DNA of 64,000 bases from Gigantopelta aegis. Its lineage: Eukaryota; Mollusca; Gastropoda; Neomphalida; Peltospiridae. Positions within the stretch are counted from its first letter, which is position 1. The number at the start of each line of letters is the position of its first letter. This document shows positions 25,193 through 47,731 of this stretch, piece by piece. Position numbers and translations under genes: made by a program. Under the pieces are notes generated by a model. The model was given only the letters and a program-made list of their open reading frames with translations, searched no databases and had not been told where the DNA came from. Location of the stretch: the NCBI RefSeq assembly GCF_016097555.1, contig NC_054706.1, positions 42,245,118 through 42,309,117 of the forward strand, written 5' to 3'.

Positions 25193-25691
25193 TATGACAT
25201 CATGGGTAAACAATATGTTGTAGAACCATCACGAGGGGTTTATGAATATTTATACCCTCTGCATACAAGATTTTCTTCAAACACATAGGGCCTATCCAGG
25301 TGCATTAATAATGCTAAAAAAAATATTTAAAAAAATAAAACATTCAATAGCAACAGTTCCCAGTTTTGTGTTATTATAGAGGGTTCCGCGATATGTTCTA
25401 AAAATAGCAATATTACCCATACCTCTGTGCGGCCGGCCATGGTGGAAGGCAAACAATAGCGTTTCATTGTTGTATACAAATACGAGCTTCGCAGTTTAAG
25501 ATTTATAACTTAAGCCCTTTTAAAAAAAAAAAGTTACTGTTAGTAGACACTGCATTATTTTGATAACATGCAGGATTATTTTGATACACTCGATAAGACG
25601 GCAAAAAGCAGATATGGAAAAAACTGGATATATTGGGAAGCAGGATTCATACACTACAAAATCGCCGGTCGAAAATGGCTTCAGGACCATA
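25193..25691. other. No gene recognised
   Basis: A minus-strand open frame (25520-25717) ends in low-complexity sequence and has no motif I know. GCGGCCGGCCATGG near 25430 is a GC island of a few bases only. Confidence 0.35.
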
Positions 25692-26068
25692 GGCACTTGA
25701 CACAGATTAGTAAACATGAATAAAAAATCTAAATTTGTTATATATCAGTAAATTTTATATATTTCCACAATATTTTGCTCATATTCTCTTCATACATGAC
25801 AAAATCATTGCCACTTAACGTATGTTTACAAATACCAAAAATTTCGATCCCTACTTGACAGAATTATTGTATAAATCAATGTAATATATTTGAATAAGAG
25901 TTTATCAAAATGAAATGTGTTTATTGTTTATTTATCTAAATTTCCACAATAATTGAATTTACTGTCTTAATACATGACAACTTTATTGTCATTTAACAAG
26001 TAATTACACGTACCAAAAATTTCGATTCCTACTATATAAAAGATAAAAGGTACGTCACTCGCCATTTT
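25692..26068. repeat. Left terminal inverted repeat (two tandem units)
   Basis: Unit copies are at about 25722-25860 and 25920-26062. Both contain ACCAAAAATTTCGATCCCTA or its close variant and the polar ATTTCCACAATA word. The inner edge overlaps the last codons and the stop of the helicase gene at 26055. Confidence 0.75.
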
Positions 26069-26756
26069 GGAGCGATTTAAATTTTTTAGGATACTGATAT
26101 CGTTCAGCTTTAATAACATTTTCTTTTGGACTGAATAAAGAAAAAGTAGTTTTCTCAAGTTTTAAAATACCACAATCAAATTGTATGGTGGGTCCATCTG
26201 CATCTAATTGTTTTACTGTGCCTTGCATTCCATTGACAAAAATTTTATTCAAATTTCTCAGTAGAATTACTGGAGAATTAAGTTTCAGGCATAAGTTCCT
26301 TTTGGCAGGTAAATTTTTCAGTTTGGTGTAGTCTCCTGAATCTTCGGATTTGTACATTACAATGTCTCCAGGAAGTTTTGCCAGTTCGGATGCATTGTGC
26401 CAGTCTACCTCAAAGTTTGTTCCATACAGAACTGTAGGGTTGATTGACGGTGGTAAATCATCTAGAGGCCTTGAAAGATTTTTCATGAAAGCATTTGTTG
26501 CAGGAGATGGAATACCTTTCTCTAACTCATTAATGGCATTAATTAGATGGAACTCATCTTGTCTCAATACAGTATTTAGTTGTATTTTGTGTTTAATAAC
26601 ATTCATCCACACTTGTGACTCAAAGCAATGCCTTCCTGGATCAGAATACATGTCATTTGGTACTGGTGGCAATTGATAAAAGTCTCCCACACAAACAACT
26701 TGCAGGCTGCCAAAGTATGATCCGACGTTTCGTATTCGTCTGCAGACAAATTCCAG
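26055..26756 (-). CDS. PIF1-like DNA helicase, 3' exon
   Basis: On the minus strand the exon begins after acceptor TTATTTTTAG at 26756, in phase with the upstream exon, and ends with TGA at 26055-26057. It encodes LEFVCRRIRNVGSYFG, then VCVGDFYQLPPVPND (helicase motif III of the PIF1 group), LNTVLRQDEFHL (motif IV-like), NSPVILLRNLNKIFVNGMQG (the PIF1 signature region before motif V) and TVKQLDADGPTIQFD. PIF1 enzymes are superfamily 1B 5'-3' DNA helicases. Cellular PIF1 is a single-copy gene, whereas transposon-borne copies are numerous in invertebrates. The tail is short and lacks the expected C-terminal motif VI. The exon itself is open throughout (234 codons), in contrast to the broken 5' exon. 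The stop codon sits inside the left terminal repeat. Confidence 0.8.
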   Translation of the reverse strand: MEFVCRRIRNVGSYFGSLQVVCVGDFYQLPPVPNDMYSDPGRHCFESQVWMNVIKHKIQLNTVLRQDEFHLINAINELEKGIPSPATNAFMKNLSRPLDDLPPSINPTVLYGTNFEVDWHNASELAKLPGDIVMYKSEDSGDYTKLKNLPAKRNLCLKLNSPVILLRNLNKIFVNGMQGTVKQLDADGPTIQFDCGILKLEKTTFSLFSPKENVIKAERYQYPKKFKSLQNGE

Positions 26757-28678
26757 CTAAAAATAAGAATATACAATTCATTTGACGTGTTGAAAGGAAA
26801 AATGATATACATACAATATGAATATTGTAACTGTAACTTTTTTACAATATTACATGTAATTGAAAAGATTATGAAAATCTGAAAATGAACTCTTTTTGGG
26901 GGGATAATACATTTAATTATGTGTATGTATTGCTACACATAAGTTTTATGCTGGTTGTCTAACGAATGTATTGCCAATAAAGTATGTTTGTGTGTAAGGT
27001 GAATTGACACTTTCAACATGGTAAAAGTTATTGTGTTGTATGAAGACCATTTCTAGTTACATGCATAATGAAAGTTTGATTTATTTTGGTAATATTTAAA
27101 GTTGATGTTGGTGTTAGCAAATTCACTGTTTAGTTTGTGTCTACAAAGTTACTATTTACTGTCATGACAATTTCATTAAGTTTGAAAGTGAAAGTGCACA
27201 TTATTTATTTCCTAACAGTATATTGCTTCATACATAAAAATGTACTGTGTATGTAATGTACATATGAGTGGGTTTTTTCGGTATCTGTAAACAATTATTA
27301 TTGAGTAATATATCAAGTACTTTGCCTCTTTAAGTTGAGTTCAAAGCAGCATATACTTATGCAATTACACTAATATATGTGTATATCAGATGCAATACCT
27401 GGTACTATTTTTAGAAATTACAATTCAAGTGTTATTTGGGTTTCTTTATATGTTAATTTTTATGTCTTTTTATTCATGTCATGCACATATAGATATTAGA
27501 CATTCAGTTAAGTGTTGATTGAAATGAATATTAACTACGGATAAATACTTTAATTATGCATCCTGGCAAATAAATGCCTAAATTTTAAAAGCATTTATGT
27601 TTTGTTGTATTTTTTTCACAGTGTCAATAATCTCAATGTGCGAACTAATTGAAGAAGTTCATAATCAAGCAGCTTGGAAATAGAAGTTAAATATGTTACT
27701 TTGCTTTTTTTTTAAATACTAATAATGTCGAAGATGTGAACAGATTCCTACATAAGAATGTTTCTCAGAAATAAAAAATAGTTAATGAATGAAGGTGCTC
27801 TAGTGGTGTCTTTAAACACAACAAATTTAAATGTTTTGAAAATGAACACAGGAGAGATATGCTTCATACGACTATATGATTAAGATACAAGAATCACTGG
27901 TTAGATTATTATTGTTTAAGCTAGTGAATGAATAATACAGTAGCTATTTGTAAAGAAATAGGCTGCTCTTTTATTTTTGCAGCTAGCTAATTCAAGTCCT
28001 CTACAATTAATTTAATATTACAATGCATATCCTGGGCTCAAACTACATTGACAAAATCACCAGTTGCTCATTTTTGTACAACGTGTGATGCAACATTAAA
28101 TCTGTGAATACTGAATTGGTTTTTTTTAATTAACCACTTCCAGGGAATGCAAATAGCTCCTTTTTTTTCTAACCGACAAAGTGTGGTTGGTTCACTTGGC
28201 CATATAACAGTATTTCAGCAGTCCACACAGGAAAGTAGCAGACTCACATAGCAAAATATTACAAGACATATCAATTATTTCTGTATACTTCAGGTGTATT
28301 ATTTTCTGTTTAATGACACCATTAGAGTGCAATGATTATGTTAGTATGTAGTCTACAAACTTGCAAACAGTGTCTGATTGAATGAAATATATAACACCTT
28401 AAGATCAGGTATAATGTTTATTTCAAAAAGCCATGATGGAGTGCAGTCAAATTCATCAATATTAGTCTGTTCCCATCTGTTACTGATATCTATTTGGTTT
28501 GATAAAAGAAGTAGCAATGACGTGTACTGACAGAAAATAAATGTATGAAAACCCCTAGAAATAAATTTAATTACTTTTTTAACAGTTTGAAAACAAAACA
28601 TTGAAATTGTGACATCTTTAGCTTCTATACTGTATGGTTACATTCTGTTGTAATCCATTAATTCATCAAAACATTTAC
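26757..28678. other. Intron of the PIF1-like gene
   Basis: It is 1.9 kb, AT-rich, bounded by GTAAAT (donor, minus strand, at 28678) and TTTTTAG (acceptor at 26757). It contains SINE tail fragments near 27798-27830 (GTGCTCTAGTGGTGTC, +) and 28295-28350 (TTTAATGACACCATTAGAGTG, -). No other feature is seen. Confidence 0.6.
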
Positions 28679-29049
28679 CTGATCAAATACTTTGGCGCTC
28701 AACATGCTAATCTCATCAATAATGAGGACCTGTGTTTCTTCAATTCGCCCTCTTGTGGTGCTATGCTCTTCTGCCTGCAGACGTTGCAGTAGTTCTTCAT
28801 TGCCATATCAGCCGTCTTGTAAACCAGCCCATGAATGCACTGTCACGGCATCATTGAATTGTGTAGAGGCTATTCCTGTACTTGCTACTACAGCAACCCG
28901 AATACCTTTAGCAATCAGTCTTCTCTGTGTTTCTTTAACTAACACTGATTTTCCAGTTCCAGCCTGTCCTAAAACTACTACATTGTCATGTGACCATTTT
29001 CAATAATTTTGTAAGCTAAAAGTTGATCTTCAGTTAATATGAATGCCAT
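28679..29049 (-). pseudogene. PIF1-like DNA helicase, 5' exon with frameshift and stop
   Basis: The minus-strand start MAFILTEDQLLAYKIIENGH is followed, after a one-base shift at about 28985-28990, by VVVLGQAGTGKSVLVKET (Walker A GQAGTGKS), VAVVASTGIAST (motif Ia), HSWAGLQDG, an in-frame TGA near 28808, and VLIIDEISMLSAKVFDQ (Walker B IIDEISML). It ends at donor CAG|GTAAAT in phase 0 with the 3' exon. So all N-terminal ATPase motifs are present but the frame is broken twice. Either the element is dead or the assembly has base errors here. The exon order matches PIF1-type helicases. Confidence 0.8.
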
Positions 29050-29139
29050 GTGTATAACATCTTTGTTAACAAATACAGGTGTTAAAATTCAAATTTCTTG
29101 TTGGTTTCCATCAGCTGGGTGAAAAATGTATATGAACAG

Positions 29140-29330
29140 TCAACAGTTATGCTACAAGAGCAAAGCGAATACCTTCTGTAATTAATCTTCATAATGCATA
29201 TTTAGCAGTCCCAGTGTGGTGTAAAACGACCACATTGTGTCCATTTCCAATACTTCACTCAGTTGAAAGTAAATTTCCAGCTGCTACGATGGCCATGTGT
29301 CAGACATGTTTGTAAACAAATGCACGTGTC
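29140..29330 (-). pseudogene. Diverged tandem duplicate of the helicase 5' exon
   Basis: The segment parallels 28890-29085. It shares GCTACAAGAGCAAAGCGAAT / GCTACTACAGCAACCCGAAT, CGACCACATTGTGTCCAT / CTACTACATTGTCATG..CCAT and GGCCATGTGTCAGACATG / TGCCATGTGTATAACATC in the same order. The Walker A region is mutated beyond use. Confidence 0.65.
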
Positions 29331-29474
29331 GAAAGCTATATTTGTGTTTTTTTTGTAAAATTCCGTTACGTCATGGACCAATGAAATGAGCTGAAAGTTT
29401 CTGCCCGAAGATTAACCCGCAATGTACTCGACTTCCGTGCTCGACAGAATGTTTTCAGGTATCCAGATGGGTAT

Positions 29475-29582
29475 AATATCCGCCCGGTCCCCTCCATTAT
29501 TATTTTTAGTTAGGGTTAGGGGTTAGGGTTGGGGTTAAGGTTAGGGTTAGGGGAGGGGGGGGGGGGGTACCGGGCGGATATT
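29475..29582. repeat. Degenerate TTAGGG tract and G-run inside a 14-bp inverted repeat
   Basis: Between AATATCCGCCCGGT (29475-29488) and its reverse complement ACCGGGCGGATATT (29569-29582) lie six or so TTAGGG-like units (about 29507-29552) and a run of about 14 G. TTAGGG is the usual animal telomere repeat. The tract could form G-quadruplexes, and the flanking arms could pair. Confidence 0.8.
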
Positions 29583-29945
29583 TTTCCCAAAGTCGGTCTC
29601 GACCACCTTCCCTAATACCGTTCACGGATATAACCGAAATATTGCCGGCAATTTTCGCAAATATATTTCACGGAAATGACCGAAAGGGCGCCATTGTTGT
29701 AAGTAGGATTATGGGATACAAAATGGATGCGCCCATAAGATAAAAGTTATTGTTTTTATGTGGCGAACAGATTACGAAATGCATACGCAAAATTCAACAA
29801 CTTGAGTCTGAATCTGGTAGACAACAGGATACTAGTATACGCAATACACAGTACTTGAAAAATATTAGCATGCACCGCGTGCACCCAGTTTTAAAAGTTA
29901 CATGCACACGCAAAAATTAGCATGCACCGGTGCATGTACTAACAT

Positions 29946-30889
29946 AGCCCGAGTACTCTGACTGTAAGAGAGCTAGACGGACATTTGGACATAAACACGC
30001 TTTCATTACAGTCAGAGACCAACCTATGTCTTTTTTTGGCAATTCCTGACTACCAAAAGGTAGGCAACAGTCCTGCTCTAATACCACAACAATCCTATGT
30101 TTGACGTCAAATACCTTTACATCAATCATTTTCGAGTTAAGTGATACAAAAAAATCCACATATTAATCACTAATACACTTACTACAGAAAGAAACCCGAC
30201 AGCACCCACATTCAGCTACGCTTCGTGACACTCCGTCGCAACAATTGCAAAGCTCGGCGATCTATTTCGAGACGTAGACCACGTGATCGCGCACTGGCCG
30301 ATTCCGCCTTGTGCAGCAGTTACAGGGGCCGTCTCATATCAAGCGAAGTTACAACATGGAAGAGTTGGCTAATGCCGTTTTGGATAAATTTGGATTTCAT
30401 TACGTCATTAAACCAAAACAATTACACATTATTGATTCCATTTTGAATTTGAAGGATACATTTGGGGTGTTATCGACAGGATACGGCAAAAGTATGTGCT
30501 ACGTACTGCCTCCTCTTATGAGACGACCCCTGTAACTGCTGCACAAGGCGGAATCGCCCAGTCTCGAAATAGATCGCCGAGCTTTGCAATTGTTGCGACG
30601 GAGTGTCACGAAGCGTAGCTGAATGTGGGTGCTGTCGGGTTTCTTTCTGTAGTATGTGTATTAGTGATTAATATGTGGATTTTTTTGTATCACTTAACTC
30701 GAAAATGATTGATGTAAAGGTATTTGATGTCAAACATAGGATTGTTGTGGTATTAGAGCGGGACTCGTTGCCTACCGTTTGGTAGTCAGGAATTGCCAAA
30801 AAAAGACATAGGTTGGTCTCTGACTGTAATGAGAGCGTGTTTATGTCCAAATGTCCGTCTAGCTCTCTTACAGTCAGAGTACTCGGGCT
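29946..30889. repeat. Large palindrome: inverted arms of about 375-393 bp around a 178-bp spacer
   Basis: The left arm 29946-30338 and right arm 30517-30889 are reverse complements at roughly 95% by eye. The arms run from AGCCCGAGTACTCTGACTG at the outer edge to CAGGGGCCGTCTCATA at the inner edge. The left arm has about 21 extra bases near 30278-30298 (around ACCACGTGATCGCG). A transcript through it could fold into a very long hairpin. The palindrome lies upstream of the PIF1-like gene inside the same composite element. Confidence 0.85.
30356..30535 (+). CDS. RecQ-like helicase N-terminal fragment in the palindrome spacer
   Basis: From ATG at 30356 the frame reads MEELANAVLDKFGF, then IKPKQLHIIDSIL, DTFGVLSTGYGKSMCYVLPP and stops at 30533. 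The order of a Q-motif-like KPKQ followed by a Walker A loop STGYGKS and CYVLPP is typical of RecQ-type DEAD/DEAH DNA helicases. Only motifs 0 and I are present. The frame enters the right palindrome arm and ends at once (MRRPL). It therefore looks like the first exon of a helicase captured or truncated when the palindrome formed. It could still encode a 59-residue peptide, but no function is claimed. Confidence 0.6.
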   Translation: MEELANAVLDKFGFHYVIKPKQLHIIDSILNLKDTFGVLSTGYGKSMCYVLPPLMRRPL

Positions 30890-31043
30890 AGTACTAACAC
30901 TGCATTTCGAGCCCTGAAATAATGTCAAACAAAAATGTATACGAAAGCAGCACGTTGTACTTTGGTATTTTGAGTCTCCCGCTATTCATGATTTCGGCAG
31001 GTAATCGATTATTTTGTGTAAAATAATTAATTTATCAAAAAAT

Positions 31044-31245
31044 AAAATGGCGAGTGACGTACCTTGTATGTTTTATATAGTAGGGACTAGGGATCTAAAT
31101 TTTTGGTACATGTAAATACACGTTAAGTGGCGATAAATTTATCATTTATGAAGATCGTATAAGCAAAATGTTGGGAAAATATATCAAGTTTATCGATATA
31201 CAACAAATTTTGAATTTTATTCATGTACAGTAGTATGATTATGAA
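31044..31245. repeat. Right terminal inverted repeat, inner unit
   Basis: It is the inverted counterpart of the left terminus: AAAATGGCGAGTGACGTACC, TTATATAGTAGGGA and GTTAAGTGGCGATAAATTTA. It is separated from its outer unit (33804-34004) by an inserted Mutator-like element. Confidence 0.75.
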
Positions 31246-31470
31246 TAGTTCATCAAGATAAACGTCTCCGGCACTATATTTATTATTGTGATAGTTATTG
31301 CTGTGCCATAACGTTTATCCATTGGATCGAATTTTCCATTTGCAATCACGATTTAATAAAATCAGGCATATGTGCTTTATTTAAGAGCCTCAACACGTAC
31401 AACAACATATTTTAATAAATTTCAGACAAAAATATTAGTACAATACCTTTGGTAACCTTTCCAGGATTAG

Positions 31471-31677
31471 ATGTTTGAAGATGACACATTTAAACATTTG
31501 AAAGCTATTTTTATCATGGCACATCGAAAATGCGGAATGAAAATATTGCGGAACGAGAATTATTCGTATCAAGCAATAAAAAGAAATATTGTTGAACTGA
31601 ATGGAATTGATTATTTATTTTGTTATTTTTGTTTCTATATATGTGCTTTGTGTGGGTTGCATTATATGCATTATTAA
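31471..31677 (+). CDS. Short open frame conserved in both copies of the Mutator-like element
   Basis: It encodes 68 residues, including LAHRKCGMKI-like MAHRKCGMKIL and GIDYLFCYFCFYICALCG. The other copy (54069-54290, minus) keeps a 73-residue frame with HRKCGMKIW and GIDYSFCYFCFYICALCG. It has no recognised domain. The cysteine-rich C-terminus could be a membrane segment. Conservation may simply reflect DNA similarity of the two element copies. Confidence 0.25.
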   Translation: MFEDDTFKHLKAIFIMAHRKCGMKILRNENYSYQAIKRNIVELNGIDYLFCYFCFYICALCGLHYMHY

Positions 31678-31915
31678 TAATAATATCACATTCAAGTTTT
31701 GGGGTGTATTATTCTTTTTTATTATTATTAAAAAATAATGATTGTCAGTACAGGCCATTACTTATTTTAAGGCCTTCATTTATTTACTTTTTTAAAAATT
31801 ATTAGTATTTTTTTTTAATATTATTATTACAGGCCATTGCTTACATGTGTTTCAAAGGTTTTTCTCTTCTTCTTAGTTTAATTATCATTGCAGGTCATTA
31901 GTTATTTTAAGGGTT

Positions 31916-31950
<35 letters not shown>

Positions 31951-32205
31951 TTAATTTTTACTCTTCTTTTTTTTTTTTTTTTTTTTTATTATTTTTTTTT
32001 TTTTAGCTATAATTACTGGTTATTAGTTATTTTAGGGTTTTTATTTAATAATAAAAAAAAAATTAATATAAATGTCTTGTACTTAACATGCAAGTTAAAA
32101 ATCATTGATTATAATAGTTTCATTAATCTTTCATAATATTTATATTAATCTTTTATAGCAAGTTCTGGGGAAAGGTGAATAGACACACAAAGAAATGGGG
32201 AAACA

Positions 32206-32930
32206 CAATTTGAAAGTTAAACTGGCTGTTGAAAATATTTTATACATGTAAATCTAAAATGTTATAATGATTGTCAGCTCCATCTTATTTATTCCTTGAA
32301 ACATTCATTTAACTACTTTCAAAAATTGTACTATAAGTCATATGTAGTTACATAACAAATCTGCACAGCATTGTAATTACAAAACATGTTCATATGGTTG
32401 TGAGGCAATCGTCAACAACACAGTTAATGTTCAAACGGTTAAGTAGGAATCAAAGTACACATCGGTTTAGGTAATGTGCAGACAGGTACAAGGCAGTTAT
32501 CACAAGCAGCAATTGTCATCAAGTCACACTTATGTATTAATTACAAAACATTGTCATATGGTTGCGAGGTTATCCTCAACAACACAGTTGTATTGCACTG
32601 ATGTGTTTCATTCATACTGTTGATGACAACTGCTGTTCGTGATAATTTATTCCTACTTGACTAATTTAACATGAACTGTGTTGTTGAGGATTGCCTAGTA
32701 ACCAGATGAACATTTATTGTAATATTTAATGTATAACTGTGACTGCTTGTGATAACTGCCTTGTTCCTGTCTGCACATTGGCTAAACCGATGTGTATTTT
32801 GATTCCTACGTAACCATTTGAATATTAACTGTGTTGTTGAATGTAATTAATTCATAAGTGTGACTTGGTGACAATTGCTGCTTGAGACAACTGCCTCATA
32901 CCAATGTGTGTTAAACATGGGTAAGCACAC
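32206..32930. mobile_element. Foldback insertion within copy 1 of the Mutator-like element
   Basis: The segment is absent from copy 2, where GGGGAAACA joins directly to TAAATTACGAATAATGCAC. Its interior is a long imperfect inverted repeat: about 32390-32600 (GTTGTGAGGCAATCGTCAAC, CACATCGGTTTAGGTAATGT, CACAAGCAGCAATTGTC) pairs with about 32670-32890 (GTGTTGTTGAGGATTGCC, ACATTGGCTAAACCGATGTG, GGTGACAATTGCTGCTTG). No coding sequence is seen. Confidence 0.7.
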
Positions 32931-33803
32931 TAAATTACGAATAATGCACATTAATTACGAATAATGCACATTAACAATAAAACAACAAGAAACAAGCAAA
33001 TGTGTGATCTCTTGCTACCCCGTTTCATCTCTCTATGTCTGTCTCCCCCAACCCCCCTCTGTCTTGTGTGTATATAAGCGTGTGTGTGTGTGTGTCATGG
33101 AAACATTTATAAATGAAAAAAACACGTTTTCATTTAGTTAATAATTAAATTAATGAATTAATTTATTATTATTATTATTAAATCAATAATTTATTTATTA
33201 TGTTATTTATTATAATTACTAACATTATTCAGTAATTTACTATTATATTATTATTTATTAAGTATTAGTTAATTATTTATTATATTATTTAGTTGTTATT
33301 ATTAATTAGTTTATTATTTATTAACTGATTTAAAAAAATTTTTATTCATTAATTAGTTTATTTATTATTATTAGTAGTAGTAGTATTATCATTATTATTA
33401 TTATTAAACGGGGAACTCGTGAACCAGAGACGAATAATAAAAATAATCGGATTCCGCTAAGAGTTTTCAATCACATTTTAAATATGCTCATAATGGCCGG
33501 CGGGAATATTCGAGATTTTGTTCGTAACTGACAATTGGATTAATGCAGGATTACTATTTGGACAAACTGTCTATTTATAAGTAAAACGTAAGTCGGGAGG
33601 TTTTCTTTATACAGTAAGTGTTTATATTTGTTAGTACATCTCATATTTCGCCACGAAATAATTAATTCTATGGTTGTATCGATTCCGCCTGAAATCTGGG
33701 CAGAAAACGCACGCTTGTTTTTGCTATTAAAGTTGTAAACATCGGGTCCAATAAATGTCAAAATGTTAAAAAACGGACCGTAGATGTTTACCTTGGTGAA
33801 CTA

Positions 33804-34004
33804 GATTATGAATAGGCCTATGTGTCAAGTGTCTTTCATATAGTAGGGATCGAAATTTTTGGTATATGTCAATACACGTTAAGTGGCAATAAATCTGTTA
33901 TGGTTGAATTGAGTATGAGCAAAATATTGCGGAAATATATCAGATTTACTGATATGCAACAAATTTAGAATTTTATTCATGTATACTAATCTGTGTCAAG
34001 TGCC
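33804..34004. repeat. Right terminal inverted repeat, outer unit
   Basis: It contains TAGTAGGGATCGAAATTTTT, CACGTTAAGTGGCAATAAAT and ends CTAATCTGTGTCAAGTGCC, the mirror of 25692-25860. Confidence 0.75.
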
Positions 34005-34039
34005 TGTGTTCAGGACTCCCATTTCTATCCATCATTTAC

Positions 34040-34795
34040 GTATGCAGATCTGATAAATTACCTGATTTTTAGCCAAGCCCTTTTTATACGCTTGAGGACT
34101 TCCAGCATTATAAAAGTTTGGATGCATATGACCGTTTTGTGTGTGGTTGGGTGAGGAATGTTGGTGTTTACATCCATGATTCAGTCCATGTGTTACGTGC
34201 AAGGGTGATGCATTCACGACGGCTTAATAACACATCACTTTATTCGTGGATTATTTTCGATAAAGCTGGTAAAGTTCTTTGTGCCCATTGTAACTGTAAA
34301 GCAGGACTTGGCGAATAATTTTCTTATGTGGCATCCACGTTATTTTATATTGAAGCCAGTGTAAGGTTAAGGGAAAGCAGCACTGTGAAACAGGAACCAG
34401 CCTACTGAATGTTGCCTGCATCACGAACTTCTGTTGACTATGCACCACTTAAAAACATTAACTTCACTACATCAAGAACTTTAAAAAAAAAAAAACAGCT
34501 GGTGAGCAAGAAAAAAGTATCAACTGCTGTCCAGTCACTTGACACACGTTTTAATGTGGAAAATGAAAAATCCTCAGAGTACTTTGCCCAAAGACGGTGT
34601 ACCAGAACTGCCGACTGATCCATCAATTCTGGTGCTACACTTGACAAATCAGATGAAGATCCAGCACTATATTGTATTTGCGATGAATGATCGCATTCTA
34701 TTCAGGAGACTGTCCCCACAAGCCATTTGAATGGTTTCATTTTTCTTGTATGAAATTAAAGAAAGCACCCACTGGAGAGTGGTATTGTATTGGCT
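34040..34795 (+). pseudogene. Decayed SWIM zinc-finger and PHD-finger protein
   Basis: The trace crosses frames and stops. It reads YADLINYLIFSQAL, shifts one base, then YTLEDFQHYKSLDAYDRFVC, GWVRNVGVY, HSRRLNN, and KVLCAHCNCKAGLGE followed by a stop at 34316. This is the CxC half of a SWIM finger (CxCx(n)CxH); the second half has become FSYVAS. After two more stops the frame reads DPALYCIC and, one frame over, CPHKPFEWFHFSCMKLKKAP and GEWYCIG, the C-terminal half of a PHD finger. Proteins combining SWIM and PHD fingers, often with a YqaJ-type nuclease, are repeated in cnidarian and mollusc genomes and are probably mobile-element derived (my recollection of the family). This copy is non-functional. 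Confidence 0.65.
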
Positions 34796-35003
34796 ATAGG
34801 AAGGGAGTGGCAGTGAAGAAAGTGAAATGTTTTAATAAAACTAAAAGAAAATAACTTTTCAAATACAAACTACTGTACACATTTACAGGTATTTATTATC
34901 ACTGCTGATGGATTTATGAGCATTGAATTTAATTATAAAACTATGTGAACTATACATGTACTTATTATAAATTATGACACTCACCAAAGAACTCACCAAA
35001 AAA

Positions 35004-35084
35004 ACACGTCTGCAGTTTTCTTATCAATACTAATTGATATGAAACCCAAGCTGCACTGATGAGCCCTGGGAGGGCGAAACGTGT
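35004..35084 (+). ncRNA. Type III hammerhead ribozyme motif, complete core
   Basis: Reading 5'-3': ACACGT (35004-35009, stem III), C17 at 35010, predicted cleavage between 35010 and 35011. Stem I follows as TGCAG (35011-35015) and CTGCA (35051-35055), with an apical hairpin TATCAAT-ACTA-ATTGATA. The core CTGATGA is at 35056-35062, stem II GCCCT-GGG-AGGGC at 35063-35075, GAA at 35076-35078, and the stem III partner ACGTGT at 35079-35084. All conserved hammerhead bases (CUGAUGA, GAAA, UH) and all three helices are present, with stem III open, so the topology is type III. Hammerheads are known in Penelope-like elements and in small retrozymes of animals. Which family this copy belongs to is not visible. 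Confidence 0.85.
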
Positions 35085-35227
35085 ACACAGTCCAAAAATG
35101 GGGGAAAAATTACAGGCCTCAATATTGCAAGTTAAATTCAGTTATGATGATTATAATTTAACAACACTTTTTTAGTGATTAGTTATTTTGTCAGCACCTA
35201 TATAGGTGTCATTACTTTGTTACATAG

Positions 35228-35745
35228 GGTCTGGGACGTAGTCCAGTGGTAAACTGCTTGTCTGGTGTGGGATCGATCCCTGTCTGTGGGCACATTGGGC
35301 TATTCCGTGTTCCAGCCAGTGCACCACGGCTGGTATATCAAAGGATGTGGTATGTGCTACCCTGTCTCTGGGATGGTGCATATAAAATATTCCTTGCCAG
35401 TGATAGAAATAAGCTCAGTGTTTCACTAGTCCACAGGACAAGTACATCTAGAAATATACTTGTCCACCAATATTGTCACCTGTCCAAATAACTGGTTTGT
35501 TTAATTCACATACATGGACATTAGTTTTGATTCGAAATGAAGATGCATTGAACAATACACAGAGGTACATTTTATCTCTCTTCCCCCCCCCCCCCCCCCC
35601 CTCCCCGAGTAGATTTACACGTTTCTTGCTACTTGGAAACAAGTAGTGGGTTTCCATTCTAAGATTATTTGTAAAAATTATACAAATGTTTGACATCCAA
35701 TAGCCGGTGATTAATAAACAATATGCTCTAGTGGTGTATTTTGAA
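35228..35745 (+). repeat. SINE family 2 interrupted by other sequence
   Basis: The tRNA-like head (GGGACGTAGTCCAGTGGTAA, GGGATCGATCCCTGTC) and body (CCAGCCAGTGCACCACGGCT, GGTGCATATAAAATATTCCT) lie at 35228-35405. The tail (GTGGGTTTCCATTCTAAGAT, TTTGACATCCAATAGCCGGT, GCTCTAGTGGTGTA) lies at 35645-35740. Between them is an unrelated segment with AGGACAAGTACATCTAGAAA and a run of about 20 C at about 35583-35602. Confidence 0.8.
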
Positions 35746-35946: not shown

Positions 35947-36064
35947 ACATGTTTCGCCCCTCCCAGGGCTCACCAGTGCAGCTAGTGTTATTCACTAATC
36001 AATGACTGAAAATTACCAATATTCTCAACAGTGACTAGTAATAAACAGTAAACTGCAAACATGT
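35947..36064 (-). ncRNA. Second hammerhead motif, opposite strand, core mutated
   Basis: On the minus strand: ACATGT (36064-36059), U17 at 36058, stem I TGCAG (36057-36053) with CTGCA (35981-35977), core CTGGTGA (35976-35970), stem II GCCC..GGGC (35969-35956), GAA (35955-35953), stem III partner ACATGT (35952-35947). The helix sequences of stems I and II match the motif at 35004. The core has A6 changed to G (CTGATGA to CTGGTGA), an invariant position, so it is predicted to be inactive. The stem I loop is much longer (about 71 nt). Confidence 0.7.
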
Positions 36065-36136: not shown

Positions 36137-36319
36137 ATGTATTTTTTCCCAGGGTATTCAGATGCTAATTATAAATGTCCTAATAAAACATATTTACAGG
36201 TGTGTGATGGCATTTCCATTCTTCAGTTAAATGGAACAACTGATGGGTACATACTTGTAATGGCACAACACACACAATTTTATCAAAAACTGGGTTTGAA
36301 CTGTCAGTTTTTGTTATAA
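36137..36319 (+). pseudogene. Possible YqaJ-type nuclease remnant
   Basis: After an acceptor-like TTTTTTCCCAG the frame reads GYSDANYKCPNKTYLQVCDG and GTTDGYILVMAQHTQFYQK before a stop at 36317-36319. The spacing KCPxK and then xHxQFYQ is faintly like the catalytic E-x-K(CP) and Q-x-Q region of YqaJ-fold exonucleases seen next to SWIM domains. The match is weak and the catalytic glutamate position is N or Y here. Unrelated open frame is the alternative. Confidence 0.25.
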
Positions 36320-36439
36320 GATAATCAATAGGACATGTCCTAGGTCCGATTGGTTTATAGCTGAAACTTAAACCAAACTGAAAAGTTTGGGCCAAAGCCT
36401 CCTTCGTCTTTCACTTTTTTCTTTAGTTTCTTCACCCTG

Positions 36440-36500
36440 GTGCGTCATAATGCTAGGAAGCCCCAACCCCCCCCCCCCCCCCCCCCCCCTCCAAAAATTA
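36440..36500. repeat. Poly-C tract
   Basis: About 27 C residues interrupted only at the ends, one of several long C-runs in the window (17655, 35583, 36467, 54940). Confidence 0.9.
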
Positions 36501-36532
36501 AAAACAAAAAAAATCCTTTATTGTCTCTCCCG

Positions 36533-36792
36533 TAGCGGGCATTACAACTGACAATGCCACAAGTAGTCGGCATTATGTTGGTTCAGGACGAATGAAATCT
36601 AACAAAAAGATTCGACAAGTATCCCTGGCACTGCCTCTCTTCCACAACTTCATAGGATGTGACACTACCCCTGCTTTCTTTGGAAAAGGTAAAAGGACAG
36701 CTTGGAACTGCTACCCTGACGTGACTTGTGCCTTTACCTGCATGGCGCCCAACCCGTACACCAAAGTCATTGTAGATGCTCTACTCTTCTAG
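36533..36792 (+). pseudogene. Fragment of a mobile-element-associated 'GCDTT' protein
   Basis: The frame reads AGITTDNATSSRHYVGSGRM, KKIRQVSLALPLFHNFIGCD, then TTPAFFGKGKRTAWNCYPDV, and ends with TAG at 36790-36792. The pattern LP.LH...GCDT..AF.GKGK..AW is recurrent in uncharacterised, repeated proteins of cnidarians and molluscs (recollection). It resembles the helix-turn-helix (G-x-D) of FEN1/PIN nucleases, which is inference. The N-terminal part is absent. Confidence 0.5.
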
Positions 36793-37434
36793 CTAATGAC
36801 ACATTTCACAGTTATCTTGTATAATAAGACCAGCTACCTGGAACATGTTGACGAAGCAAGGGAATTGAACTGCCAGAATAGGATTCAAATGAAAGCTATT
36901 ATTCCACCCATCAAATATGCCCTACTGCTAGTGTTGAGAATCGGTAGGAATTTTACCATCGATTATTGATCAGTTATACTCGGTTGTCACCAACCATTCA
37001 ACTTTAGATCGGTTACTGTTATATGAACAAAATTTTAAAAAATAAAATAAAATTATAAGGACAATCCACCTGTCATGTTCACCGCAATACACCATACAAA
37101 TCGCCAATTCTACTTTTAATAACTAACTTTTTTTTTTAGTATGTAGACATGAAAAAGAATCCCAACCCCAACATATTTACATCATTTGGACTAGAGGAAG
37201 AATTACACGTAACATTTTCCCCACACAATCAATTACGGATTTTTACAATATATTTAAAAAACCCCTAAAAACTGCTATACGACTATAATTTTTTTTTAAT
37301 GAATCATACTCTACGGTTTCAATAAACTGTTGAAAAAATTAATTAAAAGATATCGAAATTACTAATCGACCATCACATCAGCAGGGGTAAACCGATCAAT
37401 TTTCGATTATAATCGATTATTGGAACATTATTAC
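36793..37434. other. No gene recognised
   Basis: AT-rich. ATCGATTATTGATC near 36956 and CGATTATAATCGATTAT near 37404 are short palindromic words, probably parts of old repeats. Confidence 0.35.
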
Positions 37435-40249: not shown

Positions 40250-40720
40250 TTTCACTGTCCTGTTCTCTTCTATATTATCTGTTTTCTATTTGTGGATCTT
40301 TCTTCTTTTTAGTTTTCCTTATTTTGTTCCCCTTCATTCTATTCTGTGTCACTTTTATTTTATTTTAATTTTGATTCTTCTATACATGTACTCGTTCTCC
40401 TGTTTTCACTGTCCTGTGTTCTCTTCCTTCTGTTTGTCTTTGTTTTCGATAAACAGAAGGGAGAGAACATAGGTGAGTGAAAATAGGAGAAAGAAAGAGT
40501 AAATAAAAGATTAAGAGAAAATAAAATTGTCAGAGAATAGGATAAAGGAAAGGGGAAACTAAATGGAAGAAAGATGGATAAATAAAAACCAAAGATAATA
40601 AAGAAGAGAAACAGAAAAAGAGAGAACAGGACAGTGAAAATAGGACATAGAAAAAATAAATAGGAATAAGATAATAGAAAGACAAACAAAATCAACAAAG
40701 ACAAAAGGAAATAAAATAGA
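40250..40720. repeat. Polypyrimidine/polypurine imperfect inverted repeat
   Basis: The left half (40250-40450) is rich in C and T with TTTTCACTGTCCTGTTCTCT. The right half (40460-40720) is rich in A and G, with AGAGAACAGGACAGTGAAAA and similar words inverted. The centre is near 40455, where CTTCTGTTTG...AACAGAAGGGAG forms a tight hairpin. Open frames in it are composition artefacts. Confidence 0.7.
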
Positions 40721-44551: not shown

Positions 44552-44996
44552 TATATTATTGATGTCATGACCTTAGGCCCCCCTATTGCGCTGCGGCCGC
44601 AGTCTGTACGACGCTCTCTTTGCAATTGTAGAATAACTTATTTTAAACTTACATTTCATCAGTGAATTATTAGTAAGGAAGGGATGCAAAGGATGGGTGG
44701 CATCCTGGGATACATGCATAAATGACTACTTTAAGAGGTTGTAATGAATCAAGTTGATCTGTATAAAACAGAAACAGTGACCCGACCTTTAGGAAGGTTT
44801 TAATCAACATGTTAGAGAAATTTGTATAGGTATGGATATCCATCCTAAACTGGGGGTATGGAAAGCCATTCAAGGGCCCCTTCTAGACTGATTATGTGGG
44901 ACACAGAATTTTTTTCCAATTGGTCTAACAAGAATGAATAACAATAATTATTTATTCATTATAATATAATCTTGATATTACCTTTCAGACTGCAAG

Positions 44997-47731
44997 ATGC
45001 CCCCTAAAATGGCAAGGCCATTGACGGGAAAAGAACGGCAAAAGAAGTGGCATGAAAGACAGAAGGCCAACCTCGAATCCCATCAGAGGTACTTGCAGGC
45101 AGAAAGTGAACGTTATGCACGAAGGATAGCAGAAGGAAAACGTAAACGTGTTGCTGACATGACGGAACGTGAACTCCGAAAGCAGAGAAGAAAATGGAAG
45201 CGTGACTCGAAAGCTTGGCGTCAGAGGCAGAAGACAAGCATTGCTGCAATTATGACTCCACCTCAAAGTCTGCATCCTGATGCTGCTGCTGCTGAGCCAC
45301 AACCCGGTCCGAGTAGGGAACAACCAGGTCCTAGTGTTATGAAGACGAGTGGTCGAAAAAAGGTTCGTCGTGACAGGGCAAAAGCCTACCGAACCATTGA
45401 AAAACTAACCGTCAAATTGCAACATGAACAGTTAAGATGCAAGAGGGTGCAGAAACGCTATGAAAGGGCATGCGCAAAATTGTCAAAAGATCCAGCAACA
45501 CCCAGGTCTGAATCAAAGAAACTCTTGCAATCAGGCAATCTGAAATCGGTTCAGAGATTTGACGTTTTCATTTGCTCTAGCTAGAGGTATTAAGGAACGA
45601 TACAGAGAGCTTAGCAACCAACGTGAGAAACAATTGGTTCGCAGGATCTTTCTTAGTGCCTTCCTGAAAAAATATCATATGGCAAAACACTTTTCGAACA
45701 AGCTTGGTCTAAGCAGAACACTTGCGCTTAAAGATGTAGCATCAATGGCGAGGAAACGCCGGCGAGACCGCCACTCTGACAAAATTGTGAATGCAATTCG
45801 AGAATTTTTATTGTGGGATGACAACAGCATGATGAGGCCAGGTAAAAAGGACAAAAAAAAACGCAGGAGAAGAATGAAATGCAAAAACGTTTCCTTTTAG
45901 ACTCCATGCTGAATCTGCATCACAAGTTCATGTCTGAAAATGGGCTGCGTATACGGGTATCGTACCAGTTTTTCTGTCTGCAACGACCATTTTGGGTTGT
46001 GAAGCCTAATCTGTCGGACAGGGAAATGTGTCTCTGTCGCACCCACGAAAACATCCAACTGATGGCCGATAGACTTTACAAGCTGAAGATAACCGATGAG
46101 AAAGATGCAGAGAAACATCTCGAAGTGATATGCTGTTCGACGAAAAGCAAGGAGTGTATGTATCGTGAGTGTGACACGTGCAAAGATAAGCGCATCAAAT
46201 ATAAACCATATGAGCAAACAGACACCACCTGGTGGGATGAGTGGACGATTCAAGACCATGAGTATCTAAACAAGACAACAGGAAAAATAGAAGTCACCAA
46301 AAAACCCTGTGAAACATAGGGTTGAAGGAACTGTTGTTTCCCTGGCGGAGAAATTTGAGGAAGCTTTGAACAGGAAGCTTAGTCGTCACGTGTATAATAT
46401 TTGTCATCAGTACATTCAGTTGCATCAGAAAAGGCTTACTCTTGCAGAGAATGAAGCCATGATTCATATGGACTTCAGCGAGAAATATGGTCTAAAGTAC
46501 AACCGTGAAATTCAAAGTGTGCATTTTGGTACATCAAACGCACAGGTCACATTACATACCGGCATTGTGTACACAAATAATGAAACATATGGGTTTGCTA
46601 CTATTTCAGAGTGCAGACGACATGATGCACCCGCCATTTGGGCGCATCTGAAACCTGTCCTTGACGGTATATCAAAGGATCGGCCTGAGATTGATACACT
46701 GTATTTCATATCCGATGGCCCAACAACGCAGTACCGTTGTAAAACCAACTTCTATTTACTATCAACCCTTCCCTTTGAATGGGGTTATAAGATTGTCAAT
46801 TGGTCATTTCTCGAGGCTGGCCATGGCAAAGGGGCAGCCGACGGTATAGGGGGCACCCTCAAACGCACTGCAGACCGCATCGTAGCCGAAGGTAAGGATC
46901 TCACTGATGCACAAAGTGTACACATGCCTGTCAAAGAACACAACTGTCAGGTTGTTTCTGGTGACCGAGAAGGACGTTGCTCCAATTGACGCATATGTAC
47001 GACCGATCCTGCTCAAACCGATACATGGAACCATGACCTTCCACCAATTGGTTAGTGTTCACAAGCACCAGGTGATCTGCAGACGCCTTACTTGTTTCTA
47101 CATGGAAGATAAGCTATGTGATTGTTATAACCCTGTTCATCACAAGTTTCCAGAAAGGCCCGTCGAAGGTATCCTACAAACTGAAAATGGCATCCCCATT
47201 GACAGGTCAGCAACGGGAACAGCGAATAAACATGATAACGTGAGTAGTAGTGCTGTACTAGTTCAAGATGTACCTCAAGACCAATCAGCCACCAATAGCC
47301 CTGAAATAGTTCAAGATGCACCTCAAGACCAGTCTGCTACTACTAATAATGATTTGACAGCTCCTGTACAAGATGTACCTCAAGACCACAAGTCGCATAG
47401 TGGCAAACAGTCCATACTACAACCAGTGTATGTCTTCGAGGAAGAACTTGTTGGCAAGTACTGCATTGTTAGATACGACAAAAAAGCCTACCCAGGCATT
47501 ATTGAGGACGCAGACGAAGAGTCAGTCAGGGTAAATACCATGCACAAAGTGGGACAAAATAGATTCTTCTGGCCTGGCAGGAAGGACAATGATGTCTGGT
47601 ATGAGTATACAGATATAATTACGCTCATACCACAGCTCCAACGGGCAACCAGCCGGCATTACAAAGTAGAGCCGAAAATGTGGGAGGCGGTCCACAAGCA
47701 AGAGGATGACGATGAATGGGACCGTAGTTAG
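44997..47731 (+). pseudogene. DDE-type transposase gene with four frameshifts
   Basis: Five overlapping frames make one protein of about 900 residues: 44997-45584, 45559-45900, 45879-46319, 46309-46989 and 46907-47731. Shifts lie near 45560, 45880, 46300 (an A6 run) and 46915. The N-terminus is strongly basic (MARPLTGKERQKKWHERQK). The core has HMDFSEKYGLKYN, YFISDGPTTQYRCKTNF and NWSFLEAGHGKGAADGIGG, which I read as the D, D and E of an RNase H-fold transposase. Next come three VQDVPQDQSAT-like repeats, then VGKYCIVRYDKKAYPGIIED and RFFWPGRKDNDVWYEY. Homologous uncharacterised proteins are widespread in fish and molluscs. The superfamily is not certain (Sola-like is my best guess). Apart from the four shifts the frame has no internal stop, so either death is recent or the assembly has indel errors. 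Confidence 0.7.

Follow-up and report, generated by a model that had tools for sequence, protein, structure and literature searches.

The 64,000-nucleotide stretch of the Gigantopelta aegis genome analyzed here (contig NC_054706.1, hereafter the window) contains the decayed copy of an ISL2EU-like DNA transposon (PHIS superfamily) with terminal inverted repeats (TIRs). Remnants of two convergent genes were found in it, gene 1 on the plus strand and a transposase gene on the minus strand. A hammerhead ribozyme motif lies 3' of the stop codon of each gene, on the sense strand. We refer to the plus-strand motif as HHR+ and to the minus-strand motif as HHR-. Positions of the features are collected in Table 1.

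Table 1. Parts of the transposon copy and of the element nested in it, in window positions.
Feature	Position	Strand	Basis or remark
Left transposon end, TIR starting TATAGAGGGTTCCGCG, up to gene 1 start	25375..25697	+	Runs directly on into 34009 in short copies
Nested unrelated TIR element, 8.3 kb, ends CAYAGGCACTTGACACAG, PIF1-helicase ORF	25689..34008		Inserted in gene 1
Gene 1 remnant, coding for SWIM-like and PHD-like portions of a SWIM-YqaJ-PHD protein	34009..34854	+	Stop TAA 34852-34854
HHR+, hammerhead ribozyme, extended type III	35004..35084	+	Core, pairing, Rfam RF00008, RNA fold
Predicted pseudoknot formed by CCCA in the helix-I bulge (35045-35048) and TGGG in loop II (35067-35070)	35045..35070	+	Pair count
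HHR-, second hammerhead, architecture as HHR+	35947..36064	-	Predicted cleavage between 36058 and 36057
Transposase C-terminal remnant	36223..36340	-	Stop TGA 36225-36223
Transposase N-terminal remnant (MPTTCGIVSCNARYGRDN.., then LPSI.THQGEETKEKSERRRRLW)	36373..36573, approximate	-	THAP-like by eye only
Last bases common to other copies	36596..36621		Right TIR (..CGTAACCCTCTATA) missing in window

Hammerhead motifs on both strands

The invariant elements of hammerhead ribozymes are the core CUGANGA, the GAAA and a U-H cleavage dinucleotide. In HHR+, which starts 149 nt 3' of the gene 1 stop, the core reads CTGATGA (35056-35062) and GAAA (35076-35079). Stem III is formed by ACACGT (35004-35009) with A35079 and CGTGT (35080-35084), stem I by TGCAG (35011-35015) with CTGCA (35051-35055), and stem II by 35063-35075 (GCCCT/AGGGC), with a helix II of 4-5 bp. 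An apical 7-bp hairpin occupies 35022-35039. C17 corresponds to position 35010, so that cleavage is predicted between 35010 and 35011. An open helix III and three helices, the type III arrangement, are present in the folds of these hammerheads. The original prediction of a complete type III hammerhead at this site was thus correct in coordinates, core bases and helices.

A comparison with the Rfam hammerhead models, proposed as a check, identified a match to the type III model RF00008 (40.0 bits, E = 1.6e-7 for 301 bases scanned). When the whole window was scanned with 4227 Rfam families, the E value was 3.5e-5. Because this falls short of the 48.5-bit gathering score of RF00008, a default Rfam scan lists nothing at HHR+. 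The gathering score is a listing threshold and not a structural definition. Compared with the model, helix I of HHR+ carries a 33-nt insertion. The predicted RNA fold has an energy of -27.4 kcal/mol (z = -4.43), and none of 200 shuffled sequences folded equally well. A search of the 1.15-Gb genome with a pattern made of stem I, core and loop II returned 57 exact matches, and the reversed control returned 0. The motif is beyond chance, as had been claimed, and we predict from the motif that HHR+ is self-cleaving. A pseudoknot between the helix-I bulge and loop II is also predicted. Three to four complementary bases were found in the 8 rows compared, with three of the four pairs holding in at least 7 rows and the fourth in 4. 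Altogether 84.4% of the cells were paired, with 0 compensating changes.

HHR- lies 0.9 kb from HHR+ on the opposite strand, 158 nt past the transposase stop. BLAST matches between the two ribozymes (88% over 43 bp and 77% over 31 bp) identify them as homologous to each other, with little similarity outside the ribozyme. In one pair of stem III, both bases are different on the two strands (C-G versus U-A). In the window, the HHR- core reads CTGGTGA, suggesting that this copy of HHR- is probably crippled. A palindrome extending over everything from one ribozyme to the other was considered and rejected, since the ribozyme alone gave a reliable match; a weaker 52-bp match joins 35336-35387 and 35860-35811. 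Positions 35225-35400, between both ribozymes and in the portion that the copies have in common, are presumably a tRNA-derived SINE-like sequence.

The carrier transposon and its copies

The original prediction placed HHR+ beside a SWIM/PHD gene remnant. SWIM/PHD-type coding sequence does adjoin it, and turned out to be the carrier's own gene 1, from which the YqaJ part is deleted at about 34490 in the window. Four copies (L015, L023, L026, L032) keep approximately 1 kb that is missing from the window type, and this stretch encodes YqaJ (Pfam 3.5e-11). A read-through query built from L015 matched 130 proteins, the best of them about 600 aa long with YqaJ and PHD-type domains. Among named relatives, two Haliotis proteins ranked first and a protein of the sea star Patiria third, followed by Saccostrea, Pecten and others, in keeping with a mollusc origin. 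No Pfam match to SWIM was obtained with the gene 1 pieces tested, and the SWIM assignment, made by eye and from the names of relatives, is putative. The PHD of the window had a Pfam score of only 0.13, which is below the cut-off.

The C-terminal transposase remnant is 77% identical to the transposase end of L062, a copy from a second family described below (81.7% in a global alignment). The N-terminal piece gave no Pfam match to THAP, and a PDB search with the THAP-like piece was also empty. Two copies sampled by their right ends (L060 and L061) contain no recognisable transposase; L061 has a reverse-transcriptase-like fragment, which we interpret as a LINE insertion.

Alignment of the flanks, suggested as a way to find the carrier, revealed sharp TIR ends shared by the copies of the window type (family 1). 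The left end starts with TATAGAGGGTTCCGCG and the right end finishes with CGTAACCCTCTATA, together forming an imperfect inverted repeat, and the TIR starts with AGAGGG or GAGGG. The expected setting in a transposon cluster was confirmed, with HHR+ in a TIR DNA transposon that itself holds a nested TIR element. The carrier is a DNA transposon with TIRs and not a Penelope-like element or a retrozyme, the two sources from which, according to the original prediction, animal hammerheads are mainly known. One copy (L018) is inserted in another repeat, a copy of the nested element's end, of which unoccupied relatives are present in the window. Its target flank reads T/AT/A. Comparison with one paralogous empty site is equally compatible with a duplication of TATA (4 bp), of AT (2 bp) or of 0 bp.

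In the window, the nested element severs the left end of the transposon from the rest. Its inverted ends (25688-25855 and 33842-34008) are 87% identical, and it is flanked on both sides by TTCAGGAC(C/T), an 8-9 bp duplication; its outermost few bases, first or last, possibly belong to this target duplication. The PIF1-helicase ORF is at 26058-26756 on the minus strand (Pfam 1.2e-6). We had also considered 25689-34008 as part of a longer parent element, which is ruled out by the nested TIR insertion with its duplication. The stretch after 36621 was likewise ruled out as part of the parent element. At the position of the right TIR another repeat family begins instead, and the upstream sequence of those copies that were read differs. 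The start of this family (36622-37250) has coding remnants (LPLFHNFIGCDTT..) and 54 genome matches including the window, the others at 70-88% identity. Elsewhere in the window, a run of long plus-strand ORFs (44976-47731) looks transposon-like, with no Pfam match above the cut-off in four pieces tested, and a long inverted repeat (40389-40501) matches several microRNA models, all below their cut-offs.

HHR+ had been described as an isolated copy, and a lack of other genomic copies had been named as a point against it. Both can be excluded. A 201-bp query (34950-35150) identified at least 40 matches in the 1.15-Gb assembly, namely the window and 39 others at 88-98% identity, a lower bound as 40 of 134 candidates were scored. 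The 57 exact pattern matches and the second hammerhead nearby also contradict isolation. Seven of the pattern matches are 55-56 nt long and represent a second family by their loop; the remaining ones are 59-60 nt long. The units are dispersed, with no tandem ribozyme arrays in the loci fetched. The exact pattern had 0 matches in viral contigs and 0 in the prokaryote genomes scanned. A whole-genome RF00008 search returned 0 matches, as did its controls, and is thus uninformative on absence.

For family 1, we sampled 20 regions from the 201-bp match list and 6 more. All 12 scored core positions of HHR+ and the H at position 17 were kept in all 27 rows tabulated, which comprise the window and 26 copies, and every pair of stems I-III in 20 of 27, although these rows were chosen by the motif pattern (exact or loose) and are biased toward intact copies. 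A copy left out of the table (L022) has a U in place of C3, bringing the family 1 copies with an intact core to 27 of 28. A further sample consisted of 10 of the 40 places that match the right end of the element, all outside the 201-bp match list. HHR+ with CTGATGA was present in six of them, one of which (L058) lacks part of stem I, and was absent or cut in the other four.

The HHR- stretch is covered by only about 13 of the 26 family 1 rows. Among the 13 full-length rows, picked by pattern, the core was CTGATGA in 2 (L015, L033), CTGGTGA in 10, including the window, and CTGGCGA in 1; partial ones, omitted from this count, read CTGGTGA (L010) and CTGATGA (L023). In a set that includes copies sampled by their right ends, CTGATGA was found in 0 of 14 rows, some of which overlap with earlier copies (L044 is L028, L048 is L011, and L051 and L052 are one place). 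Since the core is mostly CTGGTGA or CTGGCGA, the minus-strand ribozyme is probably weak or crippled in most amplified family 1 copies, including the one in the window.

A less decayed family and conservation of the ribozymes

A search of the genome for YqaJ identified 8 places of a second family at 66-69% identity. Three of these (L062, L063, L064) were read as 2.7-kb pieces; the YqaJ and SWIM parts of the family were read in L065. In family 2, a YqaJ-PHD gene on the plus strand and a DDE_Tnp_4 transposase gene on the minus strand converge, with a hammerhead 85-165 nt past each stop. In L062, the YqaJ-PHD ORF ends at 720 (PHD 1.1e-4, 22.6 bits versus a cut-off of 24), and HHR+ follows at 885-963, about 165 nt past the stop, with an Rfam score of 40.4 bits (40.6 bits for HHR+ of L064). 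The L062 transposase (2700-1804, minus strand) matches DDE_Tnp_4 (PF13359, 6.8e-52) and HTH_Tnp_4 (PF13613, 7.4e-17). Its HHR- begins at 1715, 85 nt past the transposase stop, with the core CTGACGA. Rfam scores it at 22 bits (E = 0.55) and does not list HHR- of L063 and L064. The HHR- core is intact in 3 of 3 copies (CTGACGA) and the HHR+ core in 2 of 3 (L062, L064), having decayed in L063 (850-1000, GCTGAATAG). In L064 the transposase is fragmented. The L062 element has the right end TATAGAGGGTTCCC and a candidate left end. Both L062 ribozymes and the minus ribozyme of L033 (as a piece starting inside stem III) fold with z scores of -3.3 to -3.6.

In order to compare the families, the window was aligned with L062, one copy per family, and scored against shuffled sequences. 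The ribozymes were 92.4% (HHR+, z = 18.7) and 80.7% (HHR-, z = 13.0) identical, the last 169 coding nucleotides of gene 1 72.2% (z = 16.0) and the transposase end 81.7% (z = 17.1). The spacers between stop and ribozyme scored z = 1.8 for gene 1 (19 of 300 shuffles as high) and z = 1.7 for the transposase (23 of 300), and the 150 nt after the ribozyme z = 0.1 (HHR+) and z = -2.0 (HHR-), all close to or at the level of the shuffled sequences. In this comparison of sequences, both ribozymes are islands of conservation within noncoding DNA.

Base pairing was counted in 8 rows on joined halves without the apical loops, as MAFFT misaligned the long loops. The fraction of paired cells was 96.7%, and 1 of 19 pairs was changed on both sides. 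The covariation alone is not strong, since 40 of 500 shuffles reached its score. Within family 1, HHR+ had 1.6% minority bases compared with an average of 4.0%. Several other bins were equal or lower, and this low divergence alone is not unusual enough.

These data bear on whether the motifs could be inactive and simply inherited with the transposon. Such hitchhiking would fit the family 1 copies examined, which are decayed or internally deleted and in most rows carry a mutated HHR-, and it would fit the low HHR+ divergence, which other bins share. We nevertheless regard it as unlikely, because the core bases of HHR+ are maintained and because two islands of this strength stand out from noncoding DNA that is otherwise poorly alignable between the families.

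The same islands argue against a captured ribozyme pair, one per polarity, left behind by a circular RNA of the hepatitis-delta or viroid kind. The ribozymes are conserved without the adjoining 150 nt on their inner side, each ribozyme is located 85-165 nt past the stop of a gene on its own strand in two diverged families, and the sequence between them is presumably SINE-like. Such a relic is therefore improbable, even though toad and termite HDV-like RNAs do possess homologous hammerheads of the extended type III form, one for each polarity (PMC7936874).

Conservation could also act on DNA, for example on a palindromic site for protein binding or recombination, given that the motifs lie 0.9 kb from each other in inverted orientation and that their stem sequences are short palindromes. 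This is very improbable. Core positions that form no pairs in the RNA are also retained, and the apical hairpins differ in sequence between families and retain their fold.

A possible role at transcript ends and known systems

We consider it likely that the element is an ISL2EU-like transposon in which two convergent genes each carry a self-cleaving extended type III hammerhead 3' of the stop as a control of the 3' end. The parent element would have had a SWIM-YqaJ-PHD gene on the plus strand and, converging with it, an HTH/DDE transposase gene on the minus strand; a sense-strand ribozyme behind each stop is evident from the sequences of L062-L064 (family 2) and of the window remnants. Transcription past either stop would yield a transcript that folds and, judging by the motif, cleaves itself after nucleotide 17. 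Cleavage would separate the coding part from RNA further downstream, for example convergent antisense read-through or a poly(A) tail. Most likely, this would prevent overlap between the two opposing transcripts and limit how much stable transposition mRNA accumulates.

Neither AATAAA nor ATTAAA occurs between either stop and its ribozyme in the window. The first such signals past the ribozymes are at 35713 (plus strand) and 35756 (minus strand), and uncut messages using them would therefore meet. In the window, an AATAAA is also present at 34834, within the final part of gene 1, and L062 has ATTAAA or AATAAA signals ahead of HHR+, at 688 and 863. Messages ending at signals before HHR+ would be made without the ribozyme, which weakens a strict tail-removal model.

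That a retrozyme or Penelope-like retroelement overlaps the DNA transposon by chance can practically be dismissed, for although most animal hammerheads are carried in this way (PMC7229834), those found here are of type III and not type I, do not form tandem arrays in the loci fetched, belong to a single element that has TIRs, DDE and YqaJ genes and a target consistent with TATA, and, lying on opposite strands unlike those of retrozymes, could not cut one transcript twice to excise it as a circle.

The preferred reading, 3'-end control by two hammerheads, offers a testable function, RNA self-cleavage in a DNA-only element, and points to ISL2EU genes of other animals, at their 3' ends, as a place to look. 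Mammalian Clec2 hammerheads, located in a 3' UTR, are likewise behind a stop codon, but they are discontinuous and part of a non-mobile host gene. Among the titles and abstract openings listed by literature searches that covered few subscription journals, we found no report of a hammerhead in a cut-and-paste transposon.

In the literature consulted, animal hammerheads are tied mostly to retroelements or circular RNAs (PMC7229834, PMC3088659, PMC6155905, PMC7761336, PMC8490949, PMC6431247, PMC12477314, PMC11167929, PMC7936874). Animal non-LTR retrozymes resemble the present case in having a hammerhead in a repeated mobile element, with a mussel example known, but they are described as non-autonomous short tandem repeats with type I ribozymes and circular RNA (PMC7229834), whereas the hammerheads here are of type III and dispersed. 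Penelope-like elements and Terminons also have a hammerhead in a gene-bearing mobile element and differ in being retroelements with type I variants (PMC7229834, PMC6431247).

The transposon itself agrees with the ISL2EU description consulted (PMC4482050) in its DDE/HTH transposase (Pfam domains in family 2, remnants in the window), its separate YqaJ gene (deleted in the window) and its animal host. The target is consistent with the AT duplication of ISL2EU, with TATA or 0 bp fitting equally, and the THAP domain of ISL2EU has a THAP-like counterpart by eye, without a Pfam match (PMC4482050). Unlike ISL2EU, the ends are AGAGGG and not the usual GG, and the target is T/AT/A and not A/AT/T. That description mentions no hammerheads, of which there are two here (PMC4482050).

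HDV-like RNAs of toad and termite have been described as carrying extended type III hammerheads with a pseudoknot on either polarity, and such motifs are also known from termite and dipteran genomes; the termite genomic copies are reported to have no recognisable ORF within 2 kb (PMC7936874). A DNA transposon with a conserved ribozyme behind each of two convergent genes is a candidate carrier for a form to which the literature consulted assigns no carrier in termite genomes. More tentatively, the twin hammerheads may be a standing part of the ISL2EU-like lineage that cuts the 3' ends of both mRNAs and, at the same time, the source from which HDV-like RNAs and the genomes of flies and termites obtained their orphan hammerheads of extended type III, making the lineage a possible origin of the ribozymes of HDV-like agents. 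In line with the toad and termite ribozymes, those of Gigantopelta have a 5-bp first stem in helix I, an internal loop, an apical hairpin and a (here predicted) loop-loop pseudoknot, and there is one ribozyme per strand, the two being mutually homologous (PMC7936874). They differ in helix II, which has 4-5 bp here and 6 bp in the HDV-like extended type III form, and in their carrier, which is a two-gene DNA transposon here and a circular RNA there (PMC7936874).
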